DNA of 41,568 nt, from IMG/VR virus record IMGVR_UViG_3300031687_000034, positions 1-41,568 of that record; one strand, written 5' to 3'. The notes below the pieces were generated by a model that ran no database searches, was not told the DNA's origin, and worked only from the letters and a program-made list of their open reading frames with translations. This document shows positions 2,457 to 40,371 of this stretch, piece after piece (the stretch's first letter is position 1; each line of letters begins with the position of its first letter). The position numbers were made by a program, and so were the translations under genes. This stretch comes from a virus.

Positions 2457-4361
2457 TTATTTGTATAATTTACGAGTTTTGCCGTCGAACAATGGCGCAT
2501 AAATTTTAACTGGTTCTTCTTTACCTTTTACAGTAACTTCGCCCATTTTACCAAACGCAATATCTGGACATAGCATGTAAGTATATTCTGATACTAAGAT
2601 TGGCGTGTCTTCTTGTCTTGTTTGTGCTTCTAATCTAGCACCTAAGTTTACAGCATCGCCTACAACACTATAATCTAATCTAGTTTCAGCACCCATGTTA
2701 CCGACAATACATGTACCTGTGTTTACACCAGTACCAAACTTAACTCTAGGCAAGCCACGTTCTTCCATTTCTTTTTCTAGTTCGTCACCTAGCAGTTCAA
2801 TTTCTATTGCTGTTTTAACTGCCATCTCAGCATGATTTTCACAGGGTAGTGGAGCATTCCAGAACGCCATTATACAGTCGCCCATGAACTTATCTATTGT
2901 GCCACCGTTGGCTAGAACGATCTTAGTCATTTTATCTAGGAAGCCGTTTATAAGTTCTACTAGTCCTTCTGGATCATCGTTTTTCATATACTGCTCTGAT
3001 ATAGGAGTAAATCCGACTATGTCAGCAAACATGAAACTCATTTCTTTTCTTTCGCCACCTAGTTTCATTAGACTTGGATCTTTAACTAGCATGTCAACAT
3101 AGTCAGGCGATATGTAAGTACCAAACTGTCCTTTAATTTGCTGACGTAATTTATATTGTTTATAGAAGTTATTAAATGCTGATTGTGTAAAGATTAGAAA
3201 GCCACTTACTACAGGGTATGTAGCATCAAGTAATTGTAAATTATTTTGGTATAACCACACACTACCATATGCTTCACCACCTAAAATTAGCATGGAAATA
3301 GGTGCGGTCCATAGCAACGGTAGTTTATATACTGCTAAGGCTATTAAAATCATAGTCAACAACGCACACAGAAGCTCTGTAACAGCACTTAACTGGCTAC
3401 GGGTTATATTGGTACCATCGAGCATGTTTTGTAGCATGTGTGCGTGTATGTGCTGTGGATAGAGGTTGCCTCTTGCTGTTGGTACAGGGTTAGCAATACC
3501 TTCTGCTGTAACACCTACTATAACAAGTTTGCCTTCAAGGTCTGGAATACTATCTGCTCCAGTATATTCTATCTCAGTAAATTTGTTATTAAAGCGAATA
3601 TATGCTGTTCCGTTTGGTTGCGTTACAAAAGGATCAAAGCCTTTTACCATAAACTCTTGTATACCGATTTCGCTTGTTTTAATTTTATAACTTTTTTGTC
3701 CGTTTTTAACTCGTAACATTTCAATAGCAAAACTAGGATATATTTTTCCTTCTACGCCTATTGCCAATGGATACGTTCTTGTAACAAAATCAGGCTGTGG
3801 TGCTGATGCGTTAACACCTTTACCATTAACAGCACTTTCTAATGTAGATACGTTTGTAACAAGATTACGCCATGTTAGTAAATAGTCTGTTGCTGGAACT
3901 GGACCTATTGTGCCAGTGCCTATATGTGGGCCTGAGGTTTTAGTACCTCTAGCACTAGGTGTTTGGCTTAGCACATTGTAGTTTATTGGATTACGCCTAG
4001 CACCCGGTACATTAACAACATTCTGTGATAGCATATCGGCAAATGATTCATCGCCTGAGAACCTATCTGCTTCTGGAAACATCACTGTCCAGCCGAGGAC
4101 ACCTGAATTTTTAGTTGCTACGTCAACAACAAGTTGAGCATAGTATTGTCGTGGGAAAGGATACTGGCCGTATTTTGCTAAAGTGTTTTCGCCAAAGTTT
4201 AATAAAACAATGTCGTTGCTTTGTTTAACTTCGTCAAATTGCTGATACGCATCGAACGTTTGATTTCTTAAATTCTCAACCGGCGTAGGATCAGCAATTT
4301 TTAATATCGTCAAAAGTACGATAGATATTGCTACAGCATATCCACTGTATAACCATTTCAT
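2457..4361 (-). CDS. CHASE2-sensor class III adenylate cyclase
   Basis: This is a membrane sensor enzyme predicted to make cAMP. Residues 1-20 form an N-terminal TM anchor. Residues about 24-320 match the CHASE2 extracytoplasmic sensor, with the typical opening DPTPVENLRNQTFD and the end 'GKLVIVGVTAEGI'. Three TM helices follow (about 327-345, 348-370, 380-398), then a linker and a class III cyclase domain (about 441-600). Metal-binding Asp447 (FADIVGFT) and Asp495 (FMGD) are present. Lys491 and Asp563 sit where adenine specificity is set, where guanylate cyclases carry Glu/Cys. Asn572 and Arg576 (VNLGARLE) are the transition-state residues. All catalytic positions are intact, so an active adenylate cyclase is expected. 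It is last in an operon with secreted proteins. CHASE2 cyclases are typical of proteobacteria, and one in a phage is very unusual, suggesting acquisition from a bacterium. Confidence 0.93.
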   Translation of the reverse strand: MKWLYSGYAVAISIVLLTILKIADPTPVENLRNQTFDAYQQFDEVKQSNDIVLLNFGENTLAKYGQYPFPRQYYAQLVVDVATKNSGVLGWTVMFPEADRFSGDESFADMLSQNVVNVPGARRNPINYNVLSQTPSARGTKTSGPHIGTGTIGPVPATDYLLTWRNLVTNVSTLESAVNGKGVNASAPQPDFVTRTYPLAIGVEGKIYPSFAIEMLRVKNGQKSYKIKTSEIGIQEFMVKGFDPFVTQPNGTAYIRFNNKFTEIEYTGADSIPDLEGKLVIVGVTAEGIANPVPTARGNLYPQHIHAHMLQNMLDGTNITRSQLSAVTELLCALLTMILIALAVYKLPLLWTAPISMLILGGEAYGSVWLYQNNLQLLDATYPVVSGFLIFTQSAFNNFYKQYKLRQQIKGQFGTYISPDYVDMLVKDPSLMKLGGERKEMSFMFADIVGFTPISEQYMKNDDPEGLVELINGFLDKMTKIVLANGGTIDKFMGDCIMAFWNAPLPCENHAEMAVKTAIEIELLGDELEKEMEERGLPRVKFGTGVNTGTCIVGNMGAETRLDYSVVGDAVNLGARLEAQTRQEDTPILVSEYTYMLCPDIAFGKMGEVTVKGKEEPVKIYAPLFDGKTRKLYK

Positions 4362-4376
4362 AACTGTATTTAGTTA

Positions 4377-4808
4377 CTACTCTGTATCATTAAGTGGATT
4401 TTCTAGTATAGTCGTAATTTTTTCTTCTAGGTCTTTTCTTAATTCTCTAGCATCAGAATCGATTTCTTTAAAACGAGCATTCATGTCACGTTCCATAGCA
4501 TACACATCATTTCTAATTTCTCGTTGTGTTTCTGCTGATGATTTATCTGTTGATCTTGCTAAATCCATTGCAATAGTAATATCTGCTCTTAGATCTGTTT
4601 TAATGATTTCAGTAAGTTCGCGAACATTATCTAACTCTTGCTGAATTGCGTCAGGCTGTAAACCTGCTAACTTTTCTTCTGCGTCAAGTAGTCTACTGTA
4701 GAGTTCAAAGCCTCCCCAAAGTCCACCAATTATTGTACCTAATAATGGAAGTATAATAAGCAGTTTGGAACCACTCATTTTAACACCAGCCATTTCTATT
4801 TCTGCCAT
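4377..4808 (-). CDS. single-TM coiled-coil protein
   Basis: A 143-residue protein with one strong membrane helix near the N-terminus (about residues 14-36, KLLIILPLLGTIIGGLWGGF). A long, highly charged helix follows (about 40-140) with heptad-like spacing and many Glu/Asp/Arg/Lys, predicted as a coiled coil. It resembles many small phage and bacterial membrane-anchored coiled-coil proteins without a specific family I can name. It sits 1 base downstream of the large acidic secreted protein and 15 bases upstream of the adenylate cyclase, so it is in the same operon. An accessory or scaffold role at the inner membrane is possible but is inference. Confidence 0.8.
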   Translation of the reverse strand: MAEIEMAGVKMSGSKLLIILPLLGTIIGGLWGGFELYSRLLDAEEKLAGLQPDAIQQELDNVRELTEIIKTDLRADITIAMDLARSTDKSSAETQREIRNDVYAMERDMNARFKEIDSDARELRKDLEEKITTILENPLNDTE

Positions 4809-4809
4809 C

Positions 4810-7800
4810 TTATTTCTCCGTTTCTGTTTCTAATAATTTATATTGACTATAAATCATTTCTTTTAGTTTTTCTTGAGTCTTACCAGCCATCATGTAAAAA
4901 CTCGCTTTATTATCAACCGGCTTATTGCCTTTATACACTTGCGAACTACCATACCATGCTTGTTGATCTGCTAATTGCATTTGCGATGTATATTCGCTAA
5001 AGCCTGCTGTATAACCAATGTATGCTACTGCTACAGTTTGGTCACCGTATTCGTTACCTTGCTTTCCGTCAGTTTGTATGCTTTCTAATTCTGCTGTTAA
5101 ATTTGCTTGGGCAACTTCGGCTCCCATTGTGTCTGCCAAACTTGCTACTGCTTCAAACTGATTAACTTCTAGTTGCGTAGGTGCTTCTATTTCATACTTG
5201 TTATAATCGGGTGTTTGCTGACTTAAGAATTCTGTTAAGCCTGTTCCACTTGCTAGTGCTTCAGTTAATTCATCTTCAAACTGTACATCTGTGCTACTGA
5301 TTCCGCCGCCGGTTCCATCATCAAAACTTTCTACAAATTGTAATGATTCATCTTGTTGTTCTGTTTGTGCTTCAGCAAAACTATCAGCAACTTCAAATGC
5401 GCCGGTATCAACTGTGTCTGTAACACTTACAGTAGCATCAAAACTTTGTTGACCCATATTTTGTTCTGATTGTTCTTGGAAGAACGTATCACCTGTTGTA
5501 CTTTCTTGTGTTAGTATACCCATGTTGCCTTGGCTACTTCCGTCGTTAAAAGTTGTACTGCTTTGACTACTACCGTCATTGCCTTGAGCAAAACTTCCGC
5601 TACCGTCATTACCACTTGAACTACCATCGTCAACACTACTGCTACCGTCATCAATACTAACACTACTGGAACCATCGTCTATGATGTCAGCAATAATTGT
5701 TTCTAACTGTTGCTGTGTTTCGTTTGAAGCAAAACTGTTATCATTGCTGTTACCAAAGTCAATATTAAACTCTGCTACACTTAAACTCATAACACCTGAA
5801 CCTACGTTACCTACAAATTGTTTATCTTGTTTCTCTTGTTTTTGTTCACGTTCACTATTTGTATCTGGTGTACTGGCATCCGCATAATGTGTAGGGGAAT
5901 TTTCTTCATGATGTTCTTCCATCATAGGACCCTCTTCATAATACTCATCCATTTCTGCAAATGCTTCATTTTTAAATTCTGCTAATTCGTCTTCACTTAA
6001 TAAATCTTCAAGTCCTTCTTCTTGTATAAAACGCTCTATGTCTGATGCTACATCTAAGTCAAAGTACGCCTCTTCATCAAATTCTCTTATTTCATCAAAT
6101 GCTAGTTGTTCTTCATCTGATAAATCAAAAAATGCTTCTACGTCACATGTTGGACATTCTTTTTGTATGTCTATATTATCACTTAAAAATACTTCATACT
6201 CCATATCGGTCATCATATCTTCTTCGTAGTATAATTCCATAAGGTATTCATCTTCTAGAGCATAGTCATATGTTTCCCATTCAAAATTACCACTCTCGTC
6301 AAATTCTACTTCTTTACCATACCACTCGTCTACTTGGTCTTGTCCAAACTCTTTTACATCATACTCATACCATTCTTTACTGGTCCAGCCGTATGCGTCT
6401 TCGCCATACTGATCTTCAAACTGTTGTTCATACATTGCTTCTTGTAGCATGTATTCTTCTGTTGCCCAAATATCACTTGTTGTAAAGCCATCTTCAAAAC
6501 CATTTTCTATTGCCTGTTCTAACATATACTCGTCATGCATTTCTAAATCGTAGTTCTCTAAACCAATTGTGTCCATGACTAAATCGCCTGGATTGTTACC
6601 TTGGAATTGTATGCTAGGATCATGTCCTAGTTCTATTATGTCTTGCGTACCCATAGTAATTAATACTGCTTCTTGTAAACTTAATCCTTGGTCAACTAAC
6701 ATTTTTTGTTCACCACTTAGATATTCGTATTCTATGTTCTCGTCTTCCATTGGGTCATATTGATTAGGAACATAAACACCGTATTCGTCCATTTGGAATT
6801 CGCTACCTGCAGTATCATTCATACTGTCGTAATCGACATTAGGATCGTATCCATCGGAATAGTAGGAGCCATCTATACTAATTTGTGAGCCATCGTCTTG
6901 TGTAACTAATCCTGTGTTAGGATCATAACCGTCCATGTTACCCCAATCGTTTGGATTAAAATAGTTACTGTCGCCATATCCGTTTGCCATCATGTCAAGA
7001 TCCAAGTCGCTGTAATTGGCAAAAATACCTAACCCAGCACAGAAAGATAAACTAGCATCTTGATAGCATTGTTCCTCTTGGTCCAGCAGTTCGTCAACTT
7101 TATTAAAATATCCAGCACAATTTGTACTAAAATTAGGATCAATAGAACATTGTGAATTTAAGTACGATATAGAATATAAACTACATTGTGTACTAAAAAG
7201 AGGATCGTTTTCACATTGTGCTGGCTCTACACCATTACCATCATAGTATAATGCTCCGCCTTCTACGTTTCCTTGGTCATAGTCGTCCCATATATAAGTA
7301 TAGCGACCTAGAGTGCCGTCTTGTGGATTGACACAATCTGCACACCAACTGTTATCACTAAAGAAATACTTTTCATTAAAGGTGTCTGAGTCTTTCTTTT
7401 CTCCAATTAACACATTACTGTGACTAATTTCTAAGTTACCGTATATGTAAGCATAGTCATCGTTTTCGTCATCTGCGTTGCCCGGGCATTCTGAACAGTT
7501 TTGGTCTAGCAGTACTATTTCAAAAGTATTATGTGCGTTTGGATATTGTGGATCATATTGATCCGTATCTGCTGTTACGCCATACTCACGCATGTAGTAC
7601 CAACCAAATATAGCAACACCAGGCCCTGTGTCAAAAAGCATTGTGCTATCATGTGGTGCTTGGGTTTGTAAAGCAGTACCTAAGTCTAAGTCACTCCAGA
7701 AAGGATATAGTGTATCGTTCATTCCATATGAAGGACCAAGATGATTTACCTCATATGAACAGTAATCAGTAGCAGAGTTAAAAGAACTGCTGGTTAATAG

Positions 7801-8070
7801 TTTAAGACAACCATTAGTACTCATTAATCCATGAGTATATGTTGTTCCATGCCAGTCAAAATTAAAGCCAATAGCAAATGCGGCATTACAACCTGTTTCA
7901 TCTGCGGCGCCTTGACATAGTATTGAACCGTTGCTGTTGCCACCCATATAATAGTCGCCAACAAGATTTACTAAAGGATTTGACCCACTTGGGTCACTAT
8001 AACTATTAGCCTCTAGGGTAACTGGTAGCAAACAAAGTGCTAAGCCTATTAAGTGTTTAAAGAATCCCAT
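4810..8070 (-). CDS. large acidic secreted protein with nidogen-like N-terminal region
   Basis: Residues 1-21 are a signal peptide ending at LEANS. Residues about 45-185 look like a NIDO-type (nidogen) extracellular domain: a Gly/Asn core, 'STNGCLKL', 'LYPFWSDLDL', then 'NTFEIVLLDQN'. A Cys-rich part follows (about 190-350) with two similar units of the form CxxDPLFSTQC / CSIDPNFSTNC. Residues about 410-770 are extremely acidic (Asp/Glu/Tyr/Met). A Ser/Gly/Asp tract with repeated DDGSSS/NDGSS units follows (about 830-880), then a Gln/Thr/Ser-rich part and a 90-residue C-terminal segment. The start overlaps the end of the upstream Asn/Thr-rich gene by 22 bases and has an AAGG Shine-Dalgarno, so the two are coupled. 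A cell-surface or matrix protein is likely; the function is unknown. The family call is from motif appearance only. Confidence 0.8.
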   Translation of the reverse strand: MGFFKHLIGLALCLLPVTLEANSYSDPSGSNPLVNLVGDYYMGGNSNGSILCQGAADETGCNAAFAIGFNFDWHGTTYTHGLMSTNGCLKLLTSSSFNSATDYCSYEVNHLGPSYGMNDTLYPFWSDLDLGTALQTQAPHDSTMLFDTGPGVAIFGWYYMREYGVTADTDQYDPQYPNAHNTFEIVLLDQNCSECPGNADDENDDYAYIYGNLEISHSNVLIGEKKDSDTFNEKYFFSDNSWCADCVNPQDGTLGRYTYIWDDYDQGNVEGGALYYDGNGVEPAQCENDPLFSTQCSLYSISYLNSQCSIDPNFSTNCAGYFNKVDELLDQEEQCYQDASLSFCAGLGIFANYSDLDLDMMANGYGDSNYFNPNDWGNMDGYDPNTGLVTQDDGSQISIDGSYYSDGYDPNVDYDSMNDTAGSEFQMDEYGVYVPNQYDPMEDENIEYEYLSGEQKMLVDQGLSLQEAVLITMGTQDIIELGHDPSIQFQGNNPGDLVMDTIGLENYDLEMHDEYMLEQAIENGFEDGFTTSDIWATEEYMLQEAMYEQQFEDQYGEDAYGWTSKEWYEYDVKEFGQDQVDEWYGKEVEFDESGNFEWETYDYALEDEYLMELYYEEDMMTDMEYEVFLSDNIDIQKECPTCDVEAFFDLSDEEQLAFDEIREFDEEAYFDLDVASDIERFIQEEGLEDLLSEDELAEFKNEAFAEMDEYYEEGPMMEEHHEENSPTHYADASTPDTNSEREQKQEKQDKQFVGNVGSGVMSLSVAEFNIDFGNSNDNSFASNETQQQLETIIADIIDDGSSSVSIDDGSSSVDDGSSSGNDGSGSFAQGNDGSSQSSTTFNDGSSQGNMGILTQESTTGDTFFQEQSEQNMGQQSFDATVSVTDTVDTGAFEVADSFAEAQTEQQDESLQFVESFDDGTGGGISSTDVQFEDELTEALASGTGLTEFLSQQTPDYNKYEIEAPTQLEVNQFEAVASLADTMGAEVAQANLTAELESIQTDGKQGNEYGDQTVAVAYIGYTAGFSEYTSQMQLADQQAWYGSSQVYKGNKPVDNKASFYMMAGKTQEKLKEMIYSQYKLLETETEK

Positions 8071-9482
8071 TCGCCTTCACATTGTGATTTTGATTTCTTC
8101 TTGCCTTTACCTGATTTCTTATTACATTTTTTCATGAACTTGTCAAAATCGTCTCCTTGGTTAAGCACTTCAGAATCTACTGATGGGCGGTTTTTACTTT
8201 TCTTTTTACCAAATCCTAAGAAACCACGTTTAGCATCAGCACGTTCGTCGCTGTTTTCTGCCCATTTTTGAGTTGCTTTGTCTCCAATAGCACCCATGTA
8301 AGGACAAGGTGTTCCTGCCATTTCCATTGCTTTAAATACACGTTCGTCTTGACACATTAAACTAACTGCCGCAACCTTCATGCCCATATCGTATATAGTT
8401 TTACTTAACTTTATACGTTCACAGTTCATGTCTCTAACTGACTTACCGCCACTTAGTCCAAATACTTGTCCTTGGAAAGCACCTGATATACCAGTTGTAC
8501 ATAAATCCTGAGAGTAACTTGATCCAATGCTTGGTGCTATAGCACTAGCCGGAGGAGCCTTTGTTGTTATCTCTTGTTTAATAGTTTGGTTAGTTTCATT
8601 TTTATTAATGTTTTCGTTCTTGTTATTGTTGGTGTTGGTATTGTTACTTTCTGATTTGTTATTAGTGTTCACATTACTATCACTTTCACTTTTAGACGTA
8701 CTGTTATTGGTGTTGGTGTTATTGCTCGTAGTATCATTGGTGTTGTTATTCGTGTTGTTTGAGGTACTGTTTGAATTAACATTTTGGTCAATATTACTAT
8801 TATTGGTATTGGTATTATTCGAAGTACTGTTCACCGTGCTATCGCTAGTGTTATTGTTGGTGTTGGTATTGTTCGATGTAGTATTGTTGGTATTGCTGTT
8901 GTTATTCGTGTTCGTAGAAGTTGAAGTATTATTATTATTATTGTTGTTCGTGTTCGTAGAAGTTGAAGTATTATTATTGGTATTATTATTGGTGTTGGTG
9001 TTGGCGTTGGTATTATTATTGGTATTGGTTGCCGTACTGGTATTATTATTGGTATTGGTGTTCGCGTTATTATTCGTGTTATTATTGGTCGATGTATTAT
9101 TATTGGTATTCGTCGACGTATTATTATTGGTATTGGTGTTCGCGTTCGTGTTGGTATTGGTGTTGGTATTGGTGTTCGCGTTGGTATTAGTATTGGTGTT
9201 CGCGTTGGTGTTCGTATTTGTTGAATTATTCGTATTGGTCGACGTATTATTATTCGTGTTGTTATTGGTATTGGCGTTGGTGTTCGTGTTGGTCGACGTG
9301 TTGGTATTCGTGTTATTATTGGTGTTGGTACCGGTCGTTGTCGTGGTATTGGTAGTAGTAGTTGCACTTTCTTCACAATACTGCGTACCTGCGGTACAAG
9401 TACCTGTTTGGTCAGCATACACAACATTTGGTGTAGCGAATGCGCCAATCAAGGCTATCGCAGACAATATTCTTATCTTCAT
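8049..9482 (-). CDS. secreted Asn/Thr-rich low-complexity protein with Cys-containing C-terminal domain
   Basis: The signal peptide spans residues 1-23 (cut near VYA-DQ). Residues about 41-299 are almost only Asn, Thr and Ser with occasional Ala, in short units such as NTNTNANTNT and NNNTSTNT. The composition is prion-like. Residues about 300-400 form a folded-looking domain with conserved-type Cys and the pattern 'FGLSGGKSVRDMNCERIK' then MGMKVAAVSLMCQDE. I have the impression this pattern recurs in proteobacterial and phage proteins, but I cannot name the family. The tail is Lys-rich (KKSKNR..., KKSGKGKKKSK) and ends in a Cys-containing segment. An AGGGAG Shine-Dalgarno lies just upstream of the ATG. 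It is first in the operon leading to the acidic secreted protein, the coiled coil and the cyclase, and a late-type promoter lies 87 bases upstream. An extended surface stalk or amyloid-prone fibre is plausible. Confidence 0.85.
   Translation of the reverse strand: MKIRILSAIALIGAFATPNVVYADQTGTCTAGTQYCEESATTTTNTTTTTGTNTNNNTNTNTSTNTNTNANTNNNTNNNTSTNTNNSTNTNTNANTNTNTNANTNTNTNTNTNANTNTNNNTSTNTNNNTSTNNNTNNNANTNTNNNTSTATNTNNNTNANTNTNNNTNNNTSTSTNTNNNNNNNTSTSTNTNNNSNTNNTTSNNTNTNNNTSDSTVNSTSNNTNTNNSNIDQNVNSNSTSNNTNNNTNDTTSNNTNTNNSTSKSESDSNVNTNNKSESNNTNTNNNKNENINKNETNQTIKQEITTKAPPASAIAPSIGSSYSQDLCTTGISGAFQGQVFGLSGGKSVRDMNCERIKLSKTIYDMGMKVAAVSLMCQDERVFKAMEMAGTPCPYMGAIGDKATQKWAENSDERADAKRGFLGFGKKKSKNRPSVDSEVLNQGDDFDKFMKKCNKKSGKGKKKSKSQCEGEWDSLNT
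8586..9362 (-). repeat. degenerate short tandem repeat encoding Asn/Thr runs
   Basis: About 780 bases are built from interchangeable 6-base units (AAT/AAC plus ACC/ACT/ACG or GCG on the coding strand). On the plus strand they read as runs like ATTATTGGTGTT. The units vary in the third codon base, so the amino acid pattern is kept while the DNA repeat is imperfect. This argues for selection on the peptide. The composition makes long spurious open frames on the opposite strand (8527-9510), which should not be called as genes. Confidence 0.85.
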
Positions 9483-9606: not shown

Positions 9607-9861
9607 TTACTTAATATCAGTAGGATAGCCGACATACCAGTTAGTAATAGTATTGGCTCTTACATCTCGCCATGCTTGGACATCTAAGCCATACGCAATA
9701 ATATTATCTGTGCTTGAATATCGTTTGATGGTCATGGATTGCTTGTGAATATCTTGATTTAATGTACATGGCATGATTCTGTGTTCACCTGTGTCTATCT
9801 TAGTAAACTCGATGGTACATACACCTTTGTGTAACTGGTCAATTAATGCTTGAGCATTCAT
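9607..9861 (-). CDS. small SH3-barrel-like protein (DUF2693-type)
   Basis: An 84-residue protein opening MNAQALIDQLHKGVCTIEFTKIDTG, then 'HRIMPCTLNQDI', and ending with an 'AYGLDVQAWRDVRANTI' segment. This arrangement, 'L..G...V.FTK.DG..R.M.CTL' followed by a 'V.D....WR..R...I' strand, is what I know from the DUF2693/SH3-fold small proteins common in T4-like phages. Their function is not established. Its start overlaps the stop of the ferredoxin reductase gene by 4 bases (ATGA type), so the two are translated together. Confidence 0.65.
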   Translation of the reverse strand: MNAQALIDQLHKGVCTIEFTKIDTGEHRIMPCTLNQDIHKQSMTIKRYSSTDNIIAYGLDVQAWRDVRANTITNWYVGYPTDIK

Positions 9862-10598
9862 CCAGCAAATGCTCTCTCGAGCATGAAGTCGCCCATTTCA
9901 CCTGTGTTGCCTTCTGACCAGTTTAGTGTTTTAAACATAGTACGGCATTCTTTATTCATCTCAGGAGAACCGCAAACCATAACAGCATCTCTTTCTTTGA
10001 GAAAGCCACCCGGTAAGTCATCTTCAATGTACTGCCAAAAACGACCAGTTCTGCCATAGTCTTCTCTAGTAACTGTAGGCACATATTTAAATCTCATTAC
10101 TTCTTGTAACTCATTAAGAGACTTTATGTAAGTTAGTTCATTCACATTTCTTACAGTATGAAACAAATATACTTTTTTAAATCTATCGTAAGTGTCTGGG
10201 TCGTTTGCTATGCTCATAAAAGGAGCAATGCCTGTGCCTGTTGCTAACATTACTAAGTTTTGTTTTGGGTATAGATAATCACATACTAAACTGCCTGTTA
10301 CTTTGGGATTAACTATTATTTCATCTCCAACTTGTAAATGCTGTAACTTGCTAGTAAGTGGACCATCGGGTACTTTAATACTGAGAAACTCTAAATGGTC
10401 ATCGTAGTTGGTACTTACAATGCTGTATGCTCTCATTATCTTTTTGGGTAGTGGACTGCCTTTTACTTTGGTATTTACATCTAGGCCTATCATTGCGAAT
10501 TCGCCATTTTTAAATCTAAAGGTTTTGGTCCTTGTAGTTTTAAAACTAAAAAGTCTATCCGAGTAATGTTTGATTTCTGTAACTGTTTCTGTGAGCAC
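9858..10598 (-). CDS. ferredoxin/flavodoxin-NADP+ reductase
   Basis: FAD enzyme that moves electrons between NADPH and ferredoxin or flavodoxin. The FAD motif RxYS is RAYS at residues 56-59. A flavin/phosphate motif GPLTS lies at 79-83. The NADP-binding loop ATGTGIAP is at 119-126, with a second NADP motif VCGSPEMN near 210. The C-terminal end GDFMLERAFAG matches the bacterial subclass I Fpr signature that packs on the flavin. At 246 residues it is normal for bacterial Fpr. The start codon is GTG (10596-10598). No Shine-Dalgarno is visible; a sigma70-like promoter would start the mRNA only about 20 bases upstream, and a TATAAATA at 10603-10610 nearly touches the start. As a phage gene it is an auxiliary metabolic gene, possibly supplying reducing power for nucleotide reduction; the partner ferredoxin is not in this window. 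Confidence 0.92.
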   Translation of the reverse strand: MLTETVTEIKHYSDRLFSFKTTRTKTFRFKNGEFAMIGLDVNTKVKGSPLPKKIMRAYSIVSTNYDDHLEFLSIKVPDGPLTSKLQHLQVGDEIIVNPKVTGSLVCDYLYPKQNLVMLATGTGIAPFMSIANDPDTYDRFKKVYLFHTVRNVNELTYIKSLNELQEVMRFKYVPTVTREDYGRTGRFWQYIEDDLPGGFLKERDAVMVCGSPEMNKECRTMFKTLNWSEGNTGEMGDFMLERAFAG

Positions 10599-11693: not shown

Positions 11694-12635
11694 TTAATTT
11701 TGAGTAACTGAAACAGAACAGCCGCCAACTGTGTGGCACGTCTGAGTAAGTGAGTATGACTTTGCTGAATTCGAGCTTTGTAATAGCGTCAAATTACTAG
11801 GTTGTGTTCCGTTCAACACTATTGTGGCTGTGTGAGCACCATTACTTTGTTGAGTTATATAACCAACGGTACCATCAACGTAAGAGGAATAATTTAATGT
11901 CTTTGCTCCATCTGTTTGTTGATTGACATAAAGTGTGTTGTCATCTGCATACAAGTATAAATTTGCAGTATGACCATCATAAGTATCAAGACTACCGTTT
12001 CTTTGGAATCCAGCAAGAGTATTATTGTTACCGTGAATGTCTATAGTTGCTGTATGGTTTCCGCCCTCGTCGCCATCATCGTAAAATGTGGTACTCGATA
12101 TACTGCCGCCAGAACCAAACCAAACTCCTTGACCATATCGAACTGTATTAGAATTTCCTTTGATATGAAATCCTATATCTGATTTGCCACAACTTGCGCC
12201 ACGAGTACAATTTTGATGGAAGTATATCTGATTACTATTTCCGTCTAAGTCGCCGCCAAACCCAATACCAGTGCCCCAGGCATTAGTCCAGCCAACTTCG
12301 TTATTACTGCCATGCTGTTCTATTTGCATAGTGTTGTGGGTGCCATCAACACTAAAAAACACGTTGTTACTTTCGGCGCCCTCGGAGTGTCCTTGGCCTA
12401 TTTTAAGTGTATTGTTAGTATTATTATTCAATCCTAGTACTATATCTATTTTATTAATAGCGCCGGCTTGCATTATATCTACAACCACATTATCACCTTC
12501 CTGATCTAGCACCACTTCATTGTCTGCTTTTGCTGTTGCTGGTAATAATAGCATCATACCCAATAAGATATATCCTAATACTAACAGAGGAGTATCTTTT
12601 GGCTTCATGTCATTTAATTTTTTTTCTATATTCAT
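11694..12635 (-). CDS. curlin-repeat protein 2 (CsgA/CsgB-like amyloid subunit candidate)
   Basis: The signal peptide is at about residues 13-37 (ending ATAKA-DN). The mature protein opens NEVVLDQEGDN, shared with the other curlin-like protein in this operon. It then repeats beta-strand/turn units of the curlin type (hydrophobic strand, then QxGxxN): DIMQAGAINKI, QIEQHGSNNEV, FHIKGNSNTV, IDIHGNNNTL and others. The repeats are more divergent and more widely spaced than in E. coli CsgA. The C-terminus carries a two-Cys motif TCHTVGGC and ends SVTQN. The ATG overlaps the stop of the FecR-domain gene (ATGA). The presumed role is an export substrate of CsgG, polymerising outside the cell. The start could also be the internal Met at residue 10. 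Confidence 0.82.
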   Translation of the reverse strand: MNIEKKLNDMKPKDTPLLVLGYILLGMMLLLPATAKADNEVVLDQEGDNVVVDIMQAGAINKIDIVLGLNNNTNNTLKIGQGHSEGAESNNVFFSVDGTHNTMQIEQHGSNNEVGWTNAWGTGIGFGGDLDGNSNQIYFHQNCTRGASCGKSDIGFHIKGNSNTVRYGQGVWFGSGGSISSTTFYDDGDEGGNHTATIDIHGNNNTLAGFQRNGSLDTYDGHTANLYLYADDNTLYVNQQTDGAKTLNYSSYVDGTVGYITQQSNGAHTATIVLNGTQPSNLTLLQSSNSAKSYSLTQTCHTVGGCSVSVTQN

Positions 12636-13804
12636 TCTTGTGTTATACTTATTAATATGTTTTCACAACTACTTAAACATATAATAGTGTCTCCTAAATC
12701 TCCGTCTTTTATATCTAGCTGTGCGACAGAACCTTTTCGTAATTTAATACTAATTTTATTGCTTACTTGCCTGAGAAAAAATACTTTGCCATCTAAGTCT
12801 GGAATAATATTAAATTGATTTCCAGGATTGGTTCCGTATACAGCACCTATTAATTTATTATCGCCACTGCCTGAGTCTCCGCCTTTTTCATCTAATCCAC
12901 TAGTAGTTTTTTCTACAATGTCTAATAAGTCTACTAGGAAGTCTACATTTAATAAATCTATATCCAATTCCGTGTAGTCTAAATCTTCTGTTGTATCTGC
13001 TAAAACATCTTGCTCAATTGCATTTGCATCTAAGCCATCAAAGTCTAATAATCCGTTGTCGCCTTTTAATTCTTGTACTTGTTCTTCTTTTGCTTCTGTA
13101 ATCTGTTTTGGTTCTGCTACAATAAACATATTATCTATCATATTTAAATCTAAATCAACCAACACAACAGGCTGTGTAGGGCTTGTTTCAAATGTGCTTA
13201 CCATTACTGCCTGGTAGGCTTCATCTAATATTACTGTGCCGCCTTGATTTGTTACCGTTATGCTACCACTTGGAGCACACCCTTCTTCTAATGCTACTGT
13301 ATTAGTACAGTCTTCGTCCGGTAATAATATCACTAGACTCCTACCCAGTTCATCGACTGTGGTAGTAAAATCGGTTCCTCTAATCCCTATACTTGCGGTA
13401 GGGGTCAGGATTGTTATATTTTCTTTTGCTACGAGACCTAAACTGCCCGTGGCAAACCTAGCTGTTCCTTGTACAAAATTTAATGCCATCTTGCTTTTAC
13501 TTGGATCTGGGTCGAATACATATTCGTCTATTTCCATGTAAGTGTGTTCTGTTAGACTAACCTGGGTTTTGTCGAGAAACTCAATTTTTAGTCTCCCATT
13601 TGTTGTTTCTACTTCATCATAACTTACAATATTGGCTAAAATATTAGCCGCCAGTTCTTCGCCTGACAACCTTACAATACTTCCAGTTGCTCCACTTTGT
13701 TCAATAATGCCGCCGATGCTCTCAGCGGCACTCAGATTTGGTGTAAGCAACAGTACTAATACTGCTGTTATGTTAATCAGTCTGTTTAATAAGAACTGAT
13801 GCAT
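12632..13804 (-). CDS. secreted FecR-domain protein
   Basis: The signal peptide (about 1-27, ending LSAAES) is followed by a FecR domain at about residues 35-165: 'GSIVRLSGEEL', NGRLKIEFLDKTQVSL, MEIDEYVFDP and 'TASIGIRGTDFTT'. FecR domains occur in periplasmic regulators and in large surface proteins. Here there is no TM anchor and no sigma-factor partner in the window. The C-terminal 150 residues are Asp/Glu/Leu-rich with a Gly/Asp linker and end in a small domain containing CLSSC. The gene overlaps the upstream curlin gene by 32 bases and the downstream one by 4, so it is co-translated with both. I recall FecR-domain genes lying near CHASE2 cyclases in bacterial genomes, and both are present in this block. 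Confidence 0.88.
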   Translation of the reverse strand: MHQFLLNRLINITAVLVLLLTPNLSAAESIGGIIEQSGATGSIVRLSGEELAANILANIVSYDEVETTNGRLKIEFLDKTQVSLTEHTYMEIDEYVFDPDPSKSKMALNFVQGTARFATGSLGLVAKENITILTPTASIGIRGTDFTTTVDELGRSLVILLPDEDCTNTVALEEGCAPSGSITVTNQGGTVILDEAYQAVMVSTFETSPTQPVVLVDLDLNMIDNMFIVAEPKQITEAKEEQVQELKGDNGLLDFDGLDANAIEQDVLADTTEDLDYTELDIDLLNVDFLVDLLDIVEKTTSGLDEKGGDSGSGDNKLIGAVYGTNPGNQFNIIPDLDGKVFFLRQVSNKISIKLRKGSVAQLDIKDGDLGDTIICLSSCENILISITQE

Positions 13805-14603
13805 TTTCGCTATTTAGATTTATGTTAATTATACCTTCACACGTTGGACTACATGTTGCTGTCATGTCCTGTATGAATTGAAAATCACCATCACTGCCGT
13901 CTAAGACTACTGTTAAGGAATGACCACCGTTACCACTTTGTTTAGTAGCAAATTTGTTGTCGTCTCCTATAATTTCCATATTCCATACAACGTTACTAGT
14001 ATCAATTGTAATACCTGCTAAAGCAGATGTGCCAGTTCCAGTACTTTTAATTCCGCCAACAGCGTTATTGCCTGATGCTGATGCCCAAGCTGTAGTATTG
14101 TTGAAACTTGCAGTAAAATTGTTCCTAGAACCAAGTATATCTAAATCAAAGTTAGTGCTTTCCGCCGCGGCACTGTGAGCTATGCCAACATCAAATGTGT
14201 TGCCGTCGCCCTGAATGTCTACTAGCATGTCTGTATTATCTGCACTATTAGAGTTAGCACCGATCTGTAAATCCCAGACGTTACTATCACCTAATTGATA
14301 AAAGTCCATTACTGAACTTCCGGATCCATCAAATATTAAGTCTCCAAAAAACTTATTTGTGTTACCGTCTTGTATGATATCAATTATCAAACTGTTACCA
14401 GTTACAACTAAATCTCCTGACCCTGAGGCCACTCCAGAAACTCTGTTACTGTTACCAGCTTGTAATATTGTTAATATTAAGTTGTCACCTTCTTGGTCTA
14501 GTAGTACTTCGTTATCCGTTGCACCTAGAGCCTGACTTCCTATTATTACACTTACTATAGCGAAGACTTGTAGTGTAAATTTCTTTATTACGTTTGTCTT
14601 CAT
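13773..14603 (-). CDS. curlin-repeat protein 1 (CsgA/CsgB-like amyloid subunit candidate)
   Basis: The signal peptide spans about residues 1-28 (SQALGA-TD). The mature protein opens NEVLLDQEGDN like its neighbour and has repeated strand-turn units: LTILQAGNSNRV, IDIIQDGNTNKF, MDFYQLGDSNVW, VDIQGDGNTFDV and MEIIGDDNKFAT. Gln and Asn ladders of this kind stabilise the curli cross-beta fold. Spacing is irregular (about 25-40 residues), and the core Gln is missing in some units. A C-terminal two-Cys motif (ATCSPTCEG) matches that of curlin 2. The ATG overlaps the CsgG stop by 4 bases (ATGA). The two curlin genes look like diverged duplicates, possibly a nucleator/subunit pair like CsgB/CsgA. Confidence 0.82.
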   Translation of the reverse strand: MKTNVIKKFTLQVFAIVSVIIGSQALGATDNEVLLDQEGDNLILTILQAGNSNRVSGVASGSGDLVVTGNSLIIDIIQDGNTNKFFGDLIFDGSGSSVMDFYQLGDSNVWDLQIGANSNSADNTDMLVDIQGDGNTFDVGIAHSAAAESTNFDLDILGSRNNFTASFNNTTAWASASGNNAVGGIKSTGTGTSALAGITIDTSNVVWNMEIIGDDNKFATKQSGNGGHSLTVVLDGSDGDFQFIQDMTATCSPTCEGIININLNSENASVLIKQTD

Positions 14604-15610
14604 TTTTCTTCTCCATTAATGGGTTCACTTTTTAGTAATATTTTTTTCCAAAAAGTATTCTGTGATGACGTAGGCTTCTCGTCTACATCTGTATCCAAAA
14701 TTTCTTGATTATTGACTTTCATCCAGTAAGCTCGTTCTTGCTGATCTACTTCTTCTTGCCAATTCTCCGGATACACAATTTTCCAATATCCTCTTTCATC
14801 ACCTTGTTGTATCAATGCCAATACTGCGGCTTCAATCGCCGACCGGACTGCATAAGTTACGCTCTCGTTCTGTGTCATGCCACTTTCCAATTCAAGCAAT
14901 CGTGTATCCATGTCTAAAAATTTGAATACGTCTCCTGCCATTCCTGTACTAAGGATAGTTTTGTATGTCTGTACATTCAGTATTACTTCACCGGTGAGCG
15001 TACTTACTGCTCTAAGTGATATAGTAACACTATCTCTTCTATATTGGTTTGTAGTACCAATACCTAAGTACCTTGCACCATTACCGCCAGTCTCTACATT
15101 AGTGTCATAACCTACAACACCTCCTTCGAGTATCATACCAGCAAATAACAATGGCTGTACTGCTTGTTGAGGTTTTTCTTCAGTCTGATATTGTTCGCGT
15201 GTACTACGAACTATCTGCCTTTCCCTCACTAAGTTATCTAAGCCAAGACCCCGTTCAACTACCCGGAACCATGTTCCTTTTGGGTTTTCGTGAGCACCTG
15301 CCGCCTTCAAGGCGTCAATCAATATGCTCTTCGGATCCTGTGTGACCGCTGTACTAAAACTAGCGACACCATCTTGACTTTTTCTTTGTCCTGTTTGGTC
15401 AGTAAACTGATAAACAGCTACCACTGGCATTGTTTCGCTAGGTGGTAAATATCGTAATTTTCGATATGTGGGTAATTCTACTTGCTTCGGCTCTTCTACG
15501 CATTCGAGAAAGTCCGTATTACATGCTGTATCACCGGGTATAGATATACTAGCACACCCAGTTAAGTACATTGCGCCGACAAAGAACAGTATGTAATTAG
15601 ACAGTTTCAT
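14600..15610 (-). CDS. csgG: CsgG-like curli secretion channel lipoprotein
   Basis: CsgG forms a nonameric beta-barrel channel in the outer membrane that exports curlins. The type II signal peptide has lipobox LTGC, giving a lipidated Cys at residue 19. Hallmarks seen in order: VAVYQFTDQTGQRK, FSTAVTQDPKSILIDALK, 'WFRVVERGLGLDNLVRERQI', ILEGGVVGYDTNVETGG, GARYLGIGTTNQY, 'ISLRAVSTLTGEVILNVQTY', KTILS and 'SAIEAAVLALIQQGDERGYW'. The constriction-loop and transmembrane hairpin regions are therefore present. At 336 residues it is longer than E. coli CsgG (277), mostly by a charged C-terminal tail. The start and the CsgF stop share a base (TAATG). There is no sign of decay. Confidence 0.95.
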   Translation of the reverse strand: MKLSNYILFFVGAMYLTGCASISIPGDTACNTDFLECVEEPKQVELPTYRKLRYLPPSETMPVVAVYQFTDQTGQRKSQDGVASFSTAVTQDPKSILIDALKAAGAHENPKGTWFRVVERGLGLDNLVRERQIVRSTREQYQTEEKPQQAVQPLLFAGMILEGGVVGYDTNVETGGNGARYLGIGTTNQYRRDSVTISLRAVSTLTGEVILNVQTYKTILSTGMAGDVFKFLDMDTRLLELESGMTQNESVTYAVRSAIEAAVLALIQQGDERGYWKIVYPENWQEEVDQQERAYWMKVNNQEILDTDVDEKPTSSQNTFWKKILLKSEPINGEEK

Positions 15611-16125
15611 TAACCGCCGCCAATGTTGCCGATTCCAATTGGAATCTCAATAGTTGTTATTGTTCCGTCAGGGTCAACAATAGTCATTCTAATAATAGAT
15701 AGCCCATCTTCATTAACTGTTTTAATGTATGTAACAGTATTTCCTTCAATTTCAAAACTACCTGAATCTGAATTTGTACATGCAATAACTACTGCTGGAT
15801 CACAAAACATGCTGTCGACTAATCCTTTAGAAATTTGTGAATAAATTCTACTCTCCAAATTTCTAATAAATTTATTAATTGTCGAATTATCATTGTCACG
15901 TTCTGCTCGTTTTAACGCAGATTCTATGTCTTCTTTAATCTTATCTTTTCGTGACTTCTCCTGGTTCTCAATTGTTAAATAATGTGCTCCTGTCCCGTTA
16001 CCAGAAAATGACGGAGACTTGAACTTAAACTTTAGTTCATCGGCATAAAGGTCACTATTAGCCAAAGACATTATAAAATATCCGACCATAACCAACATAC
16101 CTAAGTGTGTACCTGTAATTTTCAT
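15610..16125 (-). CDS. csgF: CsgF-like curli assembly factor
   Basis: CsgF sits at the outer mouth of CsgG and couples secretion to nucleation. A signal peptide (about residues 1-28) is followed by 'LKFKFKSPSFSGNGTGAHYL', the counterpart of the E. coli start TMTFQFRNPNFGGNP that inserts into the CsgG lumen. A helical middle (RLxSxIxxQI-like 'ESRIYSQISKGLVDSM') and a C-terminal beta region with VTYIKTVN and 'MTIVDPDGTITTIEIPIG' also match the family layout. The protein (171 residues) has an inserted charged segment around 45-75 not found in E. coli CsgF (138 residues). It lies directly upstream of csgG with a TAATG junction. Confidence 0.9.
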   Translation of the reverse strand: MKITGTHLGMLVMVGYFIMSLANSDLYADELKFKFKSPSFSGNGTGAHYLTIENQEKSRKDKIKEDIESALKRAERDNDNSTINKFIRNLESRIYSQISKGLVDSMFCDPAVVIACTNSDSGSFEIEGNTVTYIKTVNEDGLSIIRMTIVDPDGTITTIEIPIGIGNIGGG

Positions 16126-16126
16126 T

Positions 16127-16426
16127 TTACTTTCCTGTTTGCTTTTGTTTTAATGTTTTTAATGCAGTTTCTTGTTCTGCATTGTCTAGCACTTGTTGTC
16201 TAGCTCTGTATTCTAACACAACATCAACTTTCTGTTGTAGCCTAATTAAATCTTGGTCTAATCTACGCATTTTATCTATTACTCTGATTAGTGCTATATG
16301 CATGTCGCCAAGAGCGGGATCTATCTTTTCTCCAATAAACCACCATATATAATATATAAAGTAACCGAGTCCAACGCATAACACGATTGGAAATCCAAAG
16401 TCATTAATCGCCTGTGCAATATCCAT
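16127..16426 (-). CDS. small TM protein with cytoplasmic coiled coil (b)
   Basis: A 99-residue protein with a short N-terminus (MDIAQAINDFGFP), one or two closely spaced TM segments (about 13-33) and a long charged helix (about 40-95, RVIDKMRRLDQDLIRLQQKV). The layout resembles BhlA/UviB-type holin-like proteins and the neighbouring protein at 16426-16722. Its stop lies one base before the csgF ATG and its start overlaps the stop of the upstream gene (TAATG type). It is thus an obligate part of the curli operon. A holin-like pore or a membrane partner of the secretion apparatus are both possible; neither can be decided from sequence. Confidence 0.72.
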   Translation of the reverse strand: MDIAQAINDFGFPIVLCVGLGYFIYYIWWFIGEKIDPALGDMHIALIRVIDKMRRLDQDLIRLQQKVDVVLEYRARQQVLDNAEQETALKTLKQKQTGK

Positions 16427-16722
16427 TAGTCTCTCCTAGCATCCACTTTGCCATCTTCGACAAAATTATCTGCTCTCGAAACTCGATCTATGTCAGGTCT
16501 GAGGTCTAAGGCACTGCTAACTAGCAAGTCTATTTTTAACATTTCGTTACTCATAGTACTTGCTCTCGCTTCTAGTGATGTGCAAAACATAGTCAAAGTT
16601 TTGACCTGGTCTACAACACCCTCGAGAATTTGTTTTATTACCATAAAGATAAAGAATCCCATTACTAGACTTCCGGCGATGGGGGCTCCTACTTCAGCGA
16701 TCAATCCAAATATTTCTTCCAT
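16426..16722 (-). CDS. small TM protein, first gene of the curli operon (a)
   Basis: A 98-residue protein with a short periplasmic or cytoplasmic start (MEEIFGLIAEVGAP), a TM helix (about residues 15-35, IAGSLVMGFFIFMVIKQILEG) and a charged tail (VDQVKTLTMFCTSLEARA ... DARRD). It shares topology with the next gene and may be its partner. An AAAGGTG Shine-Dalgarno stands before the ATG and a GATAAATA late-type octamer lies 63 bases upstream, so this gene opens the operon. I do not recognise a family with certainty. Confidence 0.72.
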   Translation of the reverse strand: MEEIFGLIAEVGAPIAGSLVMGFFIFMVIKQILEGVVDQVKTLTMFCTSLEARASTMSNEMLKIDLLVSSALDLRPDIDRVSRADNFVEDGKVDARRD

Positions 16723-16784: not shown

Positions 16785-16792
16785 TATTTATC
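16785..16792 (-). promoter_or_regulatory. late-type promoter octamer for the curli operon
   Basis: The minus strand reads GATAAATA in the 260-base gap 16723-16982, about 63 bases before the first ATG of the operon (16722). No -35-like TTGACA is placed ahead of it, as expected for a T4-type late promoter recognised through a phage sigma factor. This implies late transcription of the curli genes; this is inference from motif and position. Confidence 0.6.
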
Positions 16793-16982: not shown

Positions 16983-17117
16983 ATGGCGAATCCAACAGGA
17001 ATAGTAGCCATGTTATCCAAGTTCGGAACATCGGTTACCAATCTTTCTAAAGAATTTGACAAATACATGAAGTCAGGAAATATCTGGCATGTCATGAATC
17101 AAAGTCAGAAGCTTTAA
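16983..17117 (+). CDS. 44-residue peptide in its own transcription unit
   Basis: The ATG at 16983 is preceded by AGGAGAAAAGT (strong Shine-Dalgarno), and the frame reads MANPTGIVAMLSKFGTSVTN ... SGNIWHVMNQSQKL, ending TAA at 17115-17117. The peptide is soluble, amphipathic and basic-neutral, with no TM segment. It is flanked by a late-type octamer upstream and a strong terminator 6 bases after the stop. It stands alone on the plus strand between two long minus-strand operons, which argues that it is a real and strongly expressed gene. I do not recognise it. Confidence 0.75.
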   Translation: MANPTGIVAMLSKFGTSVTNLSKEFDKYMKSGNIWHVMNQSQKL

Positions 17118-17122
17118 TCACA

Positions 17123-17152
17123 AAAAAAGGGAGTTAAAAAACTCCCTTTTTT
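17123..17152. terminator. bidirectional intrinsic terminator
   Basis: A7GGGAGTT, loop AAAA, then AACTCCCTTTTTT: a perfect 7-base G/C-containing stem flanked by an A run on one side and a T run on the other. It therefore works on both strands, ending the 44-residue peptide transcript (+) and the fibre gene at 17168-20569 (-). Confidence 0.9.
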
Positions 17153-40355: not shown

Positions 40356-40371
40356 TTGCGTATTCCCCTTT

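Follow-up and report, generated by a model that had tools for sequence, protein, structure and literature searches.

A curli-type (type VIII) secretion module in a phage of a jumbo-type lineage related to PA5oct and Phosso

The window, a stretch of 41,568 nucleotides (positions 1 to 41,568 of IMG/VR record IMGVR_UViG_3300031687_000034), comes from a marine jumbo-type phage of the T4 superfamily and includes an operon for curli-type (type VIII) secretion. At the level of sequence, the operon recognised in a preliminary description of this DNA was confirmed, with corrections. Based on its gene content, setting and upstream sequence, the operon is proposed, with a probability of roughly 0.55, to be part of a horizontally acquired, phage-maintained late module that would make fibres on the infected cell, probably for aggregation or contact or against superinfection. 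Phage curli modules are already in print for SAR11 myo- and podophages; what appears to be new is their occurrence in a jumbo lineage, together with a late-promoter-like octamer, a membrane pair met only in phage-type loci among those compared and devoid of kinase domains, and a FecR protein without the anti-sigma part. No report that places a curli module in a jumbo phage was found among the matches listed from the open-licence PMC literature, and the word "curli" does not occur in the accessible part of a jumbo phage review (PMC13282480).

Composition of the module

The operon lies on the minus strand (16722-11694); in order of transcription its genes specify a pair of small membrane proteins, CsgF, CsgG, curlin 1, a FecR-domain protein and curlin 2 (Table 1). 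All seven open reading frames were found, and the tight coupling claimed earlier holds, with neighbours separated by a 1-bp gap or overlapping by 1-32 bp. The Pfam matches of CsgF, CsgG and the FecR-domain protein all exceed the curated cut-offs; the profile check suggested in the preliminary description thus upheld CsgG and CsgF, with Curlin_rpt below cut-off for curlin 1 and silent for curlin 2.

Table 1. Positions of the module and associated features in the window, with the evidence for each (E-values unless stated)
Feature	Position	Strand	Evidence or remark
GATAAATA late-promoter-like octamer	16785..16792	-	70 bp 5' of first module gene
Membrane protein A, 98 aa	16426..16722	-	phrog_18771 3.3e-23; family alignment
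Membrane protein B, 99 aa, paralogue of A	16127..16426	-	phrog_18771 7.9e-21
CsgF, 171 aa, export-type N-terminus	15610..16125	-	PF10614 3.3e-11; FxxPxFxG segment
CsgG outer-membrane channel, 336 aa, lipobox	14600..15610	-	PF03783 3.4e-48; solved CsgG 5.3e-45
Curlin 1, 276 aa, export-type N-terminus	13773..14603	-	Curlin_rpt 0.0034 (below cut-off); family profile vs 8c50 1.7e-4
Exported FecR-domain protein, 390 aa	12632..13804	-	PF04773 1.3e-9; model matches PupR, BDI_1681
Curlin 2, 313 aa	11694..12635	-	Family profile vs 8c50 1.5e-14, vs 8enq 7.3e-4; mostly-beta model
Cargo (exported Asn/Thr-rich 477 aa; 1086 aa; 143 aa membrane protein)	4377..9482	-	Between curlin 2 and cyclase
CHASE2-adenylate/guanylate cyclase, last module gene	2457..4361	-	CHASE2 5.9e-30, Guanylate_cyc 3.6e-19

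The channel belongs to the CsgG family of type VIII secretion, and its lipobox is intact as described, with Cys19 unchanged across all 17 aligned CsgG sequences. The CsgG-inserting FxxPxFxG segment of CsgF, likewise noted before, aligns with the N-terminus of solved CsgF (E 0.0044). In the channel-constriction segment, the F of E. coli CsgG is retained and Y and N are not, these being the residues that act in the constriction. CsgG, CsgF and curlin repeats are common to the E. coli csg system and the phage module, which additionally has the FecR-domain protein, the cyclase and the membrane pair. A search that detected E. coli CsgE matched none of 13 records, which included three CsgG-bearing bacteria and virus records that are mostly fragments. 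The CsgE periplasmic cap is a trait of enterobacterial systems rather than a general one. The earlier word "complete" therefore stands only if CsgE is disregarded, and the description had overlooked the cyclase at 2457-4361.

Since Pfam was below cut-off or silent, both curlins were settled by matching their family profiles to solved curlins (8c50, a curlin-repeat protein, and 8enq, the major curlin subunit). Together with the repeat motifs and an export signal read by eye, as were the export-type N-termini of CsgF and the FecR-domain protein, these profiles identify exported curlin-repeat substrates. Five motifs were compared with 5000 shuffles, the figure being the number of shuffles that reached the observed count. 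For curlin 1 the figures were 1 (QxGxxN), 5 (hxQxG), 47 (NxxxxxQxG) and 611 (GxxNxxxxxQ), whereas [G/N]xx[N/T]xhxhxQ, an alternating motif, did not occur; for curlin 2 they were 141, 97, 122 and 2 in the same order, and 0 for the alternating motif. The claim of two QxGxxN curlins thus holds as to both being curlins and as to the motif of curlin 1; the motif is weak in curlin 2, which carries the repeat in a different form. The predicted structure of curlin 2 is mostly beta (pTM 0.74). Foldseek returned nothing for this model at E up to 0.001, and the best 50 matches listed by a VIA fold search (Z 11.8-15.7) were beta-helix proteins with no curlin among them, which speaks to fold class only.

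The FecR-protein model (pTM 0.48) matches the periplasmic proteins PupR and BDI_1681 at Z 13.7-14.8, the highest value being to PupR, consistent with a periplasmic FecR domain. It also matches 5ix9 at Z 7.0, a range that may mean a common arrangement only. No N-terminal cytoplasmic anti-sigma domain is present in the protein, which begins with an export-type hydrophobic segment and enters the FecR fold at about residue 31. The cyclase, a membrane protein, has both a CHASE2 sensor and a class III catalytic domain, with presumably intact cyclase motifs in its translation. In the window it lies 7.3 kb downstream of the operon, pushed away by cargo that is preceded at 94 bp by GATAAATA and is a sub-lineage trait, homologues of the 477- and 1086-aa proteins occurring in 7 of 83 records, the window counted. 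Of the 29 jumbo-type loci that extend 9.5 kb or more beyond CsgG, 28 have the cyclase downstream; the exception (L029) ends within the cargo.

Virus lineage, distribution and known phage systems

On its capsid, portal and sheath-type proteins, which are closest to those of PA5oct and Phosso, the virus belongs to a jumbo-phage lineage related to these two and is not a pelagimyophage. Its major capsid protein (MCP) is 70% identical to that of PA5oct, versus 37% for HTVC008M and 39% for Melnitz; the capsid was thus not closest to the HTVC008M group, as that of a pelagimyophage-type virus would be. The window itself is a 41.6-kb fragment; a related contig of 339,794 bp shares the locus and has an MCP that is 90% identical, and the nearest cultured phages have genomes of 284-469 kb (jumbo, >200 kb). 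The portal-to-capsid and NUDIX-sheath blocks of PA5oct-type jumbo phages (Arenbergviridae) are collinear with the window, and on the synteny provided by these two blocks the module site is empty in PA5oct, where no module gene was matched in the syntenic region. Window protein o233 is unmatched in PA5oct, and the fibre is matched over 92 residues only, at 29%. A CsgG search of the whole phage collection matched no PA5oct-type jumbo phage. A chimeric or bacterial contig, named earlier as a possible refutation, was ruled out by phage genes on both sides and by the fibre-module junction, a fibre gene standing immediately ahead of the module in all 28 jumbo-type loci that reach far enough upstream.

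Fifty viral records contain both flanks, taken as 2.5 kb upstream and 6 kb downstream of CsgG. All 50 have the order CsgF-CsgG-curlin1-FecR and two pair members, 49 have the cyclase and 34 have curlin 2, which was not found in the other 16 and is the fastest-evolving of the module genes tested. The FecR-domain protein and the membrane pair had been placed at fixed positions; both are steady parts, and the position of the pair is constant in jumbo-type loci, whereas elsewhere 8 records have the pair on the other strand and 4 have CsgF between its two members. Rough dN/dS values of 0.06-0.33 from five pairwise comparisons, with dS >1 in most except those with L007 and some values not computable, indicate purifying selection on CsgF, CsgG, both curlins, FecR and the cyclase.

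The CsgG tree was reduced from 163 rows to 142 by dropping identical or short ones, the window CsgG being identical to that of L004, and to 111 by dropping every second bacterial row. The jumbo group sits on a single branch (100/95), and a 100/99 branch separates 31 bacterial rows from the other 80, which comprise phage-type rows together with L104, L112 and L153. L104 is a chromosomal locus of Hyphomonas sp. TMED17 with CsgF-CsgG-curlin-FecR-CHASE2 cyclase and metabolic genes on either side; no membrane pair was found in that genome. The core could therefore have arrived as one unit. The L104 CsgG branches within the phage rows and its branch is very long (1.79, support 85/78), so that transfer may have run either way. 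The pair was found in 0 of 249 bacterial genomes searched. Pair matches did occur in 15 of 80 "bacterial" loci (L097-L103, L105-L110, L113 and L138; a single member in L108 and L138), and the CsgG of all 15 is on the phage side of the tree. L098 and L100, where phage replication genes lie close to the module, are most plausibly contigs of phages that were binned into MAGs. At L153, whose locus stops at curlin 1, CsgG is on the phage side and no pair member was matched; one flank protein each of L097 and L153 was tested and had no PHROG match.

The earlier mention of curli clusters in pelagimyophages agrees with HTVC008M and the literature. HTVC008M and other pelagimyophages (PMC7029224, PMC9599517) have the order of the window (pair, CsgF, CsgG, curlin, FecR, second curlin, cyclase), the FecR and second curlin of HTVC008M being recognised by profile, and GATAAATA lies 96 bp upstream of the HTVC008M module. 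HTVC008M differs in lineage, in a CsgG that is 48.5% identical and in genome site. The OM43 phage Melnitz (PMC9004378), also differing in its MCP, has the same gene order with GATAAATA 68 bp upstream; csgA and csgB are stated there to be missing, unlike the GenBank record, which names two curlin-repeat proteins. The HTVC023P-type podophages, compared by published description, have a T8SS of HK, CsgF, CsgG, CsgA/B, FecR, second CsgA/B and AC (PMC9599517). By position, this HK probably corresponds to the membrane pair, which shows no kinase domain and whose ORFs span 82-132 aa. A 180-kb T4-like marine virus with curli genes and a predicted Bacteroidetes host, for which aggregation was proposed (PMC7198788), is by description closest to Pelagibacter and cyanobacterial T4-like viruses and falls below 200 kb.

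Timing, membrane pair and possible functions

In the window, GATAAATA occurs eight times, always intergenic and 29-94 bp ahead of a same-strand gene. This form was chosen after viewing the window's list of TATAAATA-like sites, before its test at other loci. When up to one mismatch is allowed, TATAAATA shows no enrichment in the window (103 sites against 110.6 expected), and 2 of its 5 exact copies lie within 20 bp before a gene. Against an expectation of 0.03 per 150 bp, all 33 jumbo-type loci having 150 bp upstream show NATAAATA ahead of the module (23 of 23 once 90%-alike upstreams are collapsed), as do 33 of 46 non-jumbo loci. The octamer also precedes fibre, portal and tape-measure genes; it was absent within 120 bp before sheath (0/14) and capsid (0/1) genes in jumbo-type loci and hence does not mark all virion genes. 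The PA5oct region holds three GATAAATA, 32 bp before the fibre, 27 bp before a virion-protein gene and inside a protease gene. The module is thus probably transcribed late, alongside virion genes. According to PMC9599517, ocean metatranscriptomes contain transcripts of curli genes from pelagiphages.

In the fibre-forming module favoured here, CsgG and CsgF would occupy the outer membrane of the host at a late stage of infection, and curlins 1 and 2 would exit through them to form amyloid-type fibres, first on the infected cell and, once it has lysed, on the debris of its envelope. Instead of being an anti-sigma factor, the FecR-domain protein could be an anchor, in the periplasm or at the surface, or could work with the CHASE2 sensor. 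The paired membrane proteins may act as a gate or timer for export or for the opening of the membrane, perhaps replacing CsgE. Sticky cells and debris would let progeny meet new hosts, or the altered surface would act against superinfection. Counted against this explanation are the 13 of 46 non-jumbo loci without the octamer, the missing octamer before sheath and capsid genes, the unmatched CsgE, the gaps in curlin 2 and its fast evolution, the fold searches with the curlin-2 model, which retrieved no curlin, the weak holin similarity of the pair, which would allow a role in lysis, and the report that cells infected with Melnitz showed no clumping by cytogram or TEM (PMC9004378). An extended version is tentative: jumbo phages might run a self-contained late extracellular-amyloid programme, in which the pair gates a captured exporter, FecR and the CHASE2 cyclase report assembly via cAMP, and the fibres make traps of infected cells and debris where progeny and fresh hosts meet, as a matrix of viral origin.

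The preliminary description had seen no obvious use for such a system in a phage, yet sibling capture (proposed in PMC7029224), a lysis pore, uptake and superinfection are discussed in print; its functional options are narrowed by the octamer and the export signals. The membrane pair bears on lysis. Its family has exactly two members in 78 of the 79 records having any, and the best hydropathy window exceeds 1.3 in 157 of 157 pair ORFs; both window proteins combine an N-terminal hydrophobic segment with a charged tail, that of protein A ending in DARRD. The hydrophobic segments and charged tails, with the late-promoter-like octamer, would fit a lysis or membrane-permeability device in which a holin-like pair and the CsgG pore time depolarisation or release, the curlins being secondary; a pinholin-like role has been proposed for CsgG (PMC9004378). 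Ten of 20 pair members show a match, though a weak one, to the holin family phrog_4898 at E up to 0.5 (best 1.1e-4; 0.028 for membrane protein B), and the 21 Pfam families matched by these 20 members at E up to 1 include neither a holin nor a HisKA/HATPase domain. Such a device is unlikely, as a pore-only role leaves the retention of curlin 1 and FecR (50/50) and of the cyclase (49/50) unexplained.

Superinfection exclusion usually acts earlier in infection, and this counts against the idea that late fibres serve mainly to mask receptors of the infected cell. That idea, discussed in PMC9599517, would draw on exported-type curlins under late-promoter-like control and is judged quite unlikely. 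Adjacency to fibre genes in all 28 jumbo-type loci, with the octamer common to both, could indicate a virion accessory whose curlins coat or extend the tail fibres. This is improbable: the export-type N-termini of curlins, CsgF and FecR should take them out of the cytoplasm where virions form, which disfavours incorporation inside the cell, and in HTVC008M and Melnitz the module adjoins baseplate/tail genes of the opposite strand, not fibres. Least probable is an outer-membrane pore for nutrient or cofactor uptake during infection (raised in PMC7029224 and PMC9599517); a CsgG without the CsgE cap could be open, but the octamer argues for late expression, disfavouring early uptake, and the curlins and FecR are left unexplained.

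Phage curli modules have been annotated in HTVC008M and described in print, yet without a settled function. The presence of the module, the pair and the octamer in a distant jumbo-type lineage argues for a selected late-infection device over stray metabolic cargo. If the fibres form, these would be viruses that make an extracellular amyloid matrix in marine infections.

Architecture and viral setting of the curli module

The curli operon comprises seven ORFs arranged head to tail, with neighbouring ORFs separated by a 1-bp gap or overlapping by 1–32 bp. The assignment of CsgG and CsgF in the preliminary description was borne out, as both exceeded the Pfam cut-offs (3.4e-48 and 3.3e-11, respectively), CsgG matched the solved CsgG at 5.3e-45, and the N-terminus of the solved CsgF aligned with the CsgF family (E 0.0044). 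FecR was also above its cut-off (1.3e-9). Export-type N-termini were judged by eye.

Features of the module and of other parts of the window
Feature	Position	Strand	Description
CHASE2-cyclase	2457-4361		634 aa; CHASE2 sensor and class III cyclase domain; overlooked in the preliminary description
477-aa protein	8049-9482	-	mostly Asn/Thr repeats, giving a prion-like composition; the 1086-aa protein comes next
NAD-/FAD-binding oxidoreductase protein	9858-10598	-	ferredoxin-reductase-like; inside the cargo
Sigma-70 consensus	11690-11662	-	TTGACA-17-TATAAT, 12/12; immediately 3' of curlin 2, ahead of o83/o97
Curli operon	16722-11694	-	seven ORFs
44-aa ORF	16983-17117	+	between the fibre gene and the module
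Terminator-like hairpin	17123-17152	+	strong; separates the fibre gene from the module; Ts follow on the minus strand too
827-aa protein	38001-40484	-	FG-GAP repeats, lipobox-like start inside the ORF; adjoins the baseplate hub gene

The window holds portal, protease, major capsid, hub, and sheath-type genes, together with a tape-measure gene (weak match, 4.4e-5). Its capsid protein is 70% identical to those of the PA5oct-type Pseudomonas phages (284–288 kb) and 63% identical to that of Sinorhizobium phage Phosso (469 kb), and these groups also rank first by portal (52%) and sheath-type protein (37–38%). A capsid search of 20 module-carrying records matched 12, nine of them at 85–100% identity (the window counted; one has 339,794 bp) and the Pelagibacter phage HTVC008M, the OM43 phage Melnitz, and one 149-kb record at 36–39%; the other eight, mostly fragments, gave no match. 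PA5oct is collinear with the window over two blocks, portal to capsid and NUDIX to sheath. At the place of the module in the window, PA5oct has its fibre genes immediately next to its convergent genes. The module genes had no match in the PA5oct and Phosso regions, and none of the seven CsgG matches among 50,697 phage records belongs to these groups. The module is thus inserted cargo in a jumbo-type myophage lineage, with the fibre genes on one side and the convergent NUDIX-sheath block on the other. By its motifs, the 827-aa FG-GAP protein is a putative integrin-like surface lipoprotein in a phage. In OR851715.1, an unannotated 1.5-kb record bearing the name Salmonella phage, there is a CsgG relative with 39% identity.

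Conservation of the module genes

From 108 viral stretches, 80 loci were kept, which together with HTVC008M, Melnitz, and the window gave 83 records mapped by profile. CsgG and CsgF were found in all 83, curlin 1 in 82, the family of two small membrane proteins (hereafter the pair) in 79, FecR in 77, the cyclase in 68, and curlin 2 in 45, many records being truncated by contig ends. The four records without a pair match are cut: three begin in CsgF (L011, L021, L023) and one ends in curlin 1 (L068). Where both flanks are available (50 records), two pair members and the order CsgF-CsgG-curlin 1-FecR are always present; of these 50, 49 have the cyclase and 34 have curlin 2. Exactly two pair members occur in 78 of the 79 records, and each time one ends in RRD or RKD and the other does not. 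The earlier proposal that FecR and two membrane proteins hold fixed positions stands for FecR and, within the jumbo-type loci, for the pair, which precedes CsgF wherever present; it fails for the pair outside these loci, with eight records having the pair on the opposite strand and four having its members on either side of CsgF. A fibre gene lies directly ahead of the module in 28/28 jumbo-type loci with enough upstream sequence. The cyclase directly follows the second curlin in HTVC008M and Melnitz. Across 31 jumbo-type loci, 21–7,333 bp separate curlin 2 from the cyclase, and the maximum is that of the window. The 477-aa and 1086-aa cargo proteins, with export-type N-termini (by eye), are present in 7/83 records, and homologues of the oxidoreductase in 9/83.

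Against Pfam, curlin 1 was under the cut-off (0.0034, suggestive at most) and curlin 2 gave no match. Profiles from aligned homologues outperformed Pfam: 8c50, a solved curlin-repeat protein, was matched by curlin 2 at 1.5e-14 and by curlin 1 at 1.7e-4, and 8enq, the major curlin subunit, by curlin 2 at 7.3e-4. Five repeat motifs were compared with composition shuffles (n=5000) for each curlin, and some exceeded the shuffles in each. Both had been described as QxGxxN proteins; this motif is clear in curlin 1 only (reached in 1/5000 shuffles), whereas curlin 2 has an alternating repeat form (0/5000). Modelled with AlphaFold2, curlin 2 has a mainly beta structure (mean pLDDT 75, pTM 0.74) with a general likeness to beta-helix proteins.

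FecR is treated as an iron-dependent regulator in PMC9599517. The phage FecR protein opens with an export-type signal, and its predicted model (pTM 0.48) has a FecR-domain fold from residue 31 and a separate small beta domain at the end. The model resembles PupR's periplasmic portion (Z 14.8, rmsd 2.8, 137 aligned), with a weaker match to the 5ix9 cell-surface anchoring domain (Z 7.0, rmsd 2.2, 74 aligned); the cytoplasmic anti-sigma part is absent. FecR may serve as an anchor or partner of the CHASE2 sensor.

Five rough pairwise comparisons, in which dS was often saturated and some values were not computable, gave dN/dS of 0.07–0.10 for CsgG, 0.14–0.22 for curlin 1, 0.06–0.21 for FecR, and 0.22–0.33 for curlin 2. 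Between one locus (L007) and the window, CsgF to FecR are 90–98% identical and curlin 2, the lipoprotein-like gene, and the cyclase only 60–73%, a drop that likely marks a recombination boundary inside the module.

A late-promoter-like octamer

The octamer GATAAATA, one base off the T4 late consensus TATAAAT (given in PMC9004378), occurs eight times in the window, always intergenic and 29–94 bp ahead of a same-strand gene; strand positions 20–100 bp before a gene make up about 3% of all. The genes that follow are the module, both fibres, portal, tape measure, hub, the 105-aa lipoprotein-like gene, and the 477-aa gene (at 94 bp). The octamer was noticed after the scan, and therefore other loci served as the test. 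Within 150 bp before the module, NATAAATA was present in 33/33 jumbo-type loci (28 as GATAAATA; background 0.029) and in 33/46 other loci (24 as TATAAATA; background 0.026). Since related loci are non-independent, upstreams 90% alike were collapsed, and the octamer was kept in 23/23 jumbo-type cases. For other jumbo-type genes, [GT]ATAAATA lay within 120 bp of the main fibre in 21/25, cyclase in 12/31, FecR in 3/35, curlin 2 in 1/34, and CsgF, CsgG, curlin 1, sheath, and capsid in 0/33, 0/36, 0/35, 0/14, and 0/1, respectively. PA5oct also has GATAAATA, 32 bp ahead of a fibre and 27 bp ahead of a virion protein gene. From this distribution, we read the module as probably transcribed late, at the same time as a subset of virion genes. 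The sigma-70 site after curlin 2 suggests a separate, possibly early unit for the small genes o83/o97; overall, promoter-like sites were no more frequent than in shuffles (62 observed, 56.3 expected).

Origin of the pair and possible function

From a genome-contig scan, 80 of 305 relatives were kept. The phage-built profiles gave no pair, FecR, or cyclase match in 63 of these loci (Sphingomonas, Roseovarius, Pseudovibrio, Balneolaceae, and others), of which 57 had a curlin match and one (L153) a phage-side CsgG. On the chromosome of Hyphomonas sp. TMED17, a single CsgF-CsgG-curlin-FecR-CHASE2 cyclase locus flanked by metabolic genes lacks the pair. The pair family occurred in two copies in 9/9 phage records searched and in none of 249 genomes of the taxonomic order to which this Hyphomonas belongs, and all 15 genome-contig loci with pair matches have a phage-side CsgG; therefore, by its distribution, the pair looks like a phage addition. 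Two of the 15 (L098, L100) have phage replication genes nearby; these 142- and 121-kb contigs with the curli module, binned as a Sphingobacteriales MAG, are likely misbinned phage genomes. At the pair's place, PMC9599517 names a "histidine kinase, sometimes two". The pair proteins are 82–132 aa long, and the window's two have a hydrophobic segment at the N-terminus. No kinase domain was present among the Pfam matches obtained with 20 members; the best holin match was weak (1.1e-4). From their position, the podophage "histidine kinase" genes may belong to the pair family.

Phage curli modules are already known. Searches of open-licence PMC literature found, among the matches listed, no earlier report of a jumbo-type lineage with one; by the same searches and within the same matches, it is also new that a cultured relative has an empty site, that a shared late-promoter-like octamer precedes the module, and that the pair is ubiquitous, as is the revised view of the kinase label and of FecR.

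The sequence itself shows the gene content, the order, the octamer, and selection on those genes that were tested. A role of the module in uptake is counted against by the late timing, and decoration of virions during assembly by the export signals. Aggregation helping progeny was proposed as "sibling capture" (PMC7029224) and also for a Bacteroidetes-type virus (PMC7198788); PMC9004378 reports no clumping in Melnitz cultures. In the proposed mechanism, CsgG and CsgF would assemble late in the host outer membrane, the curlins would be exported, and fibres could form on the cell and debris.
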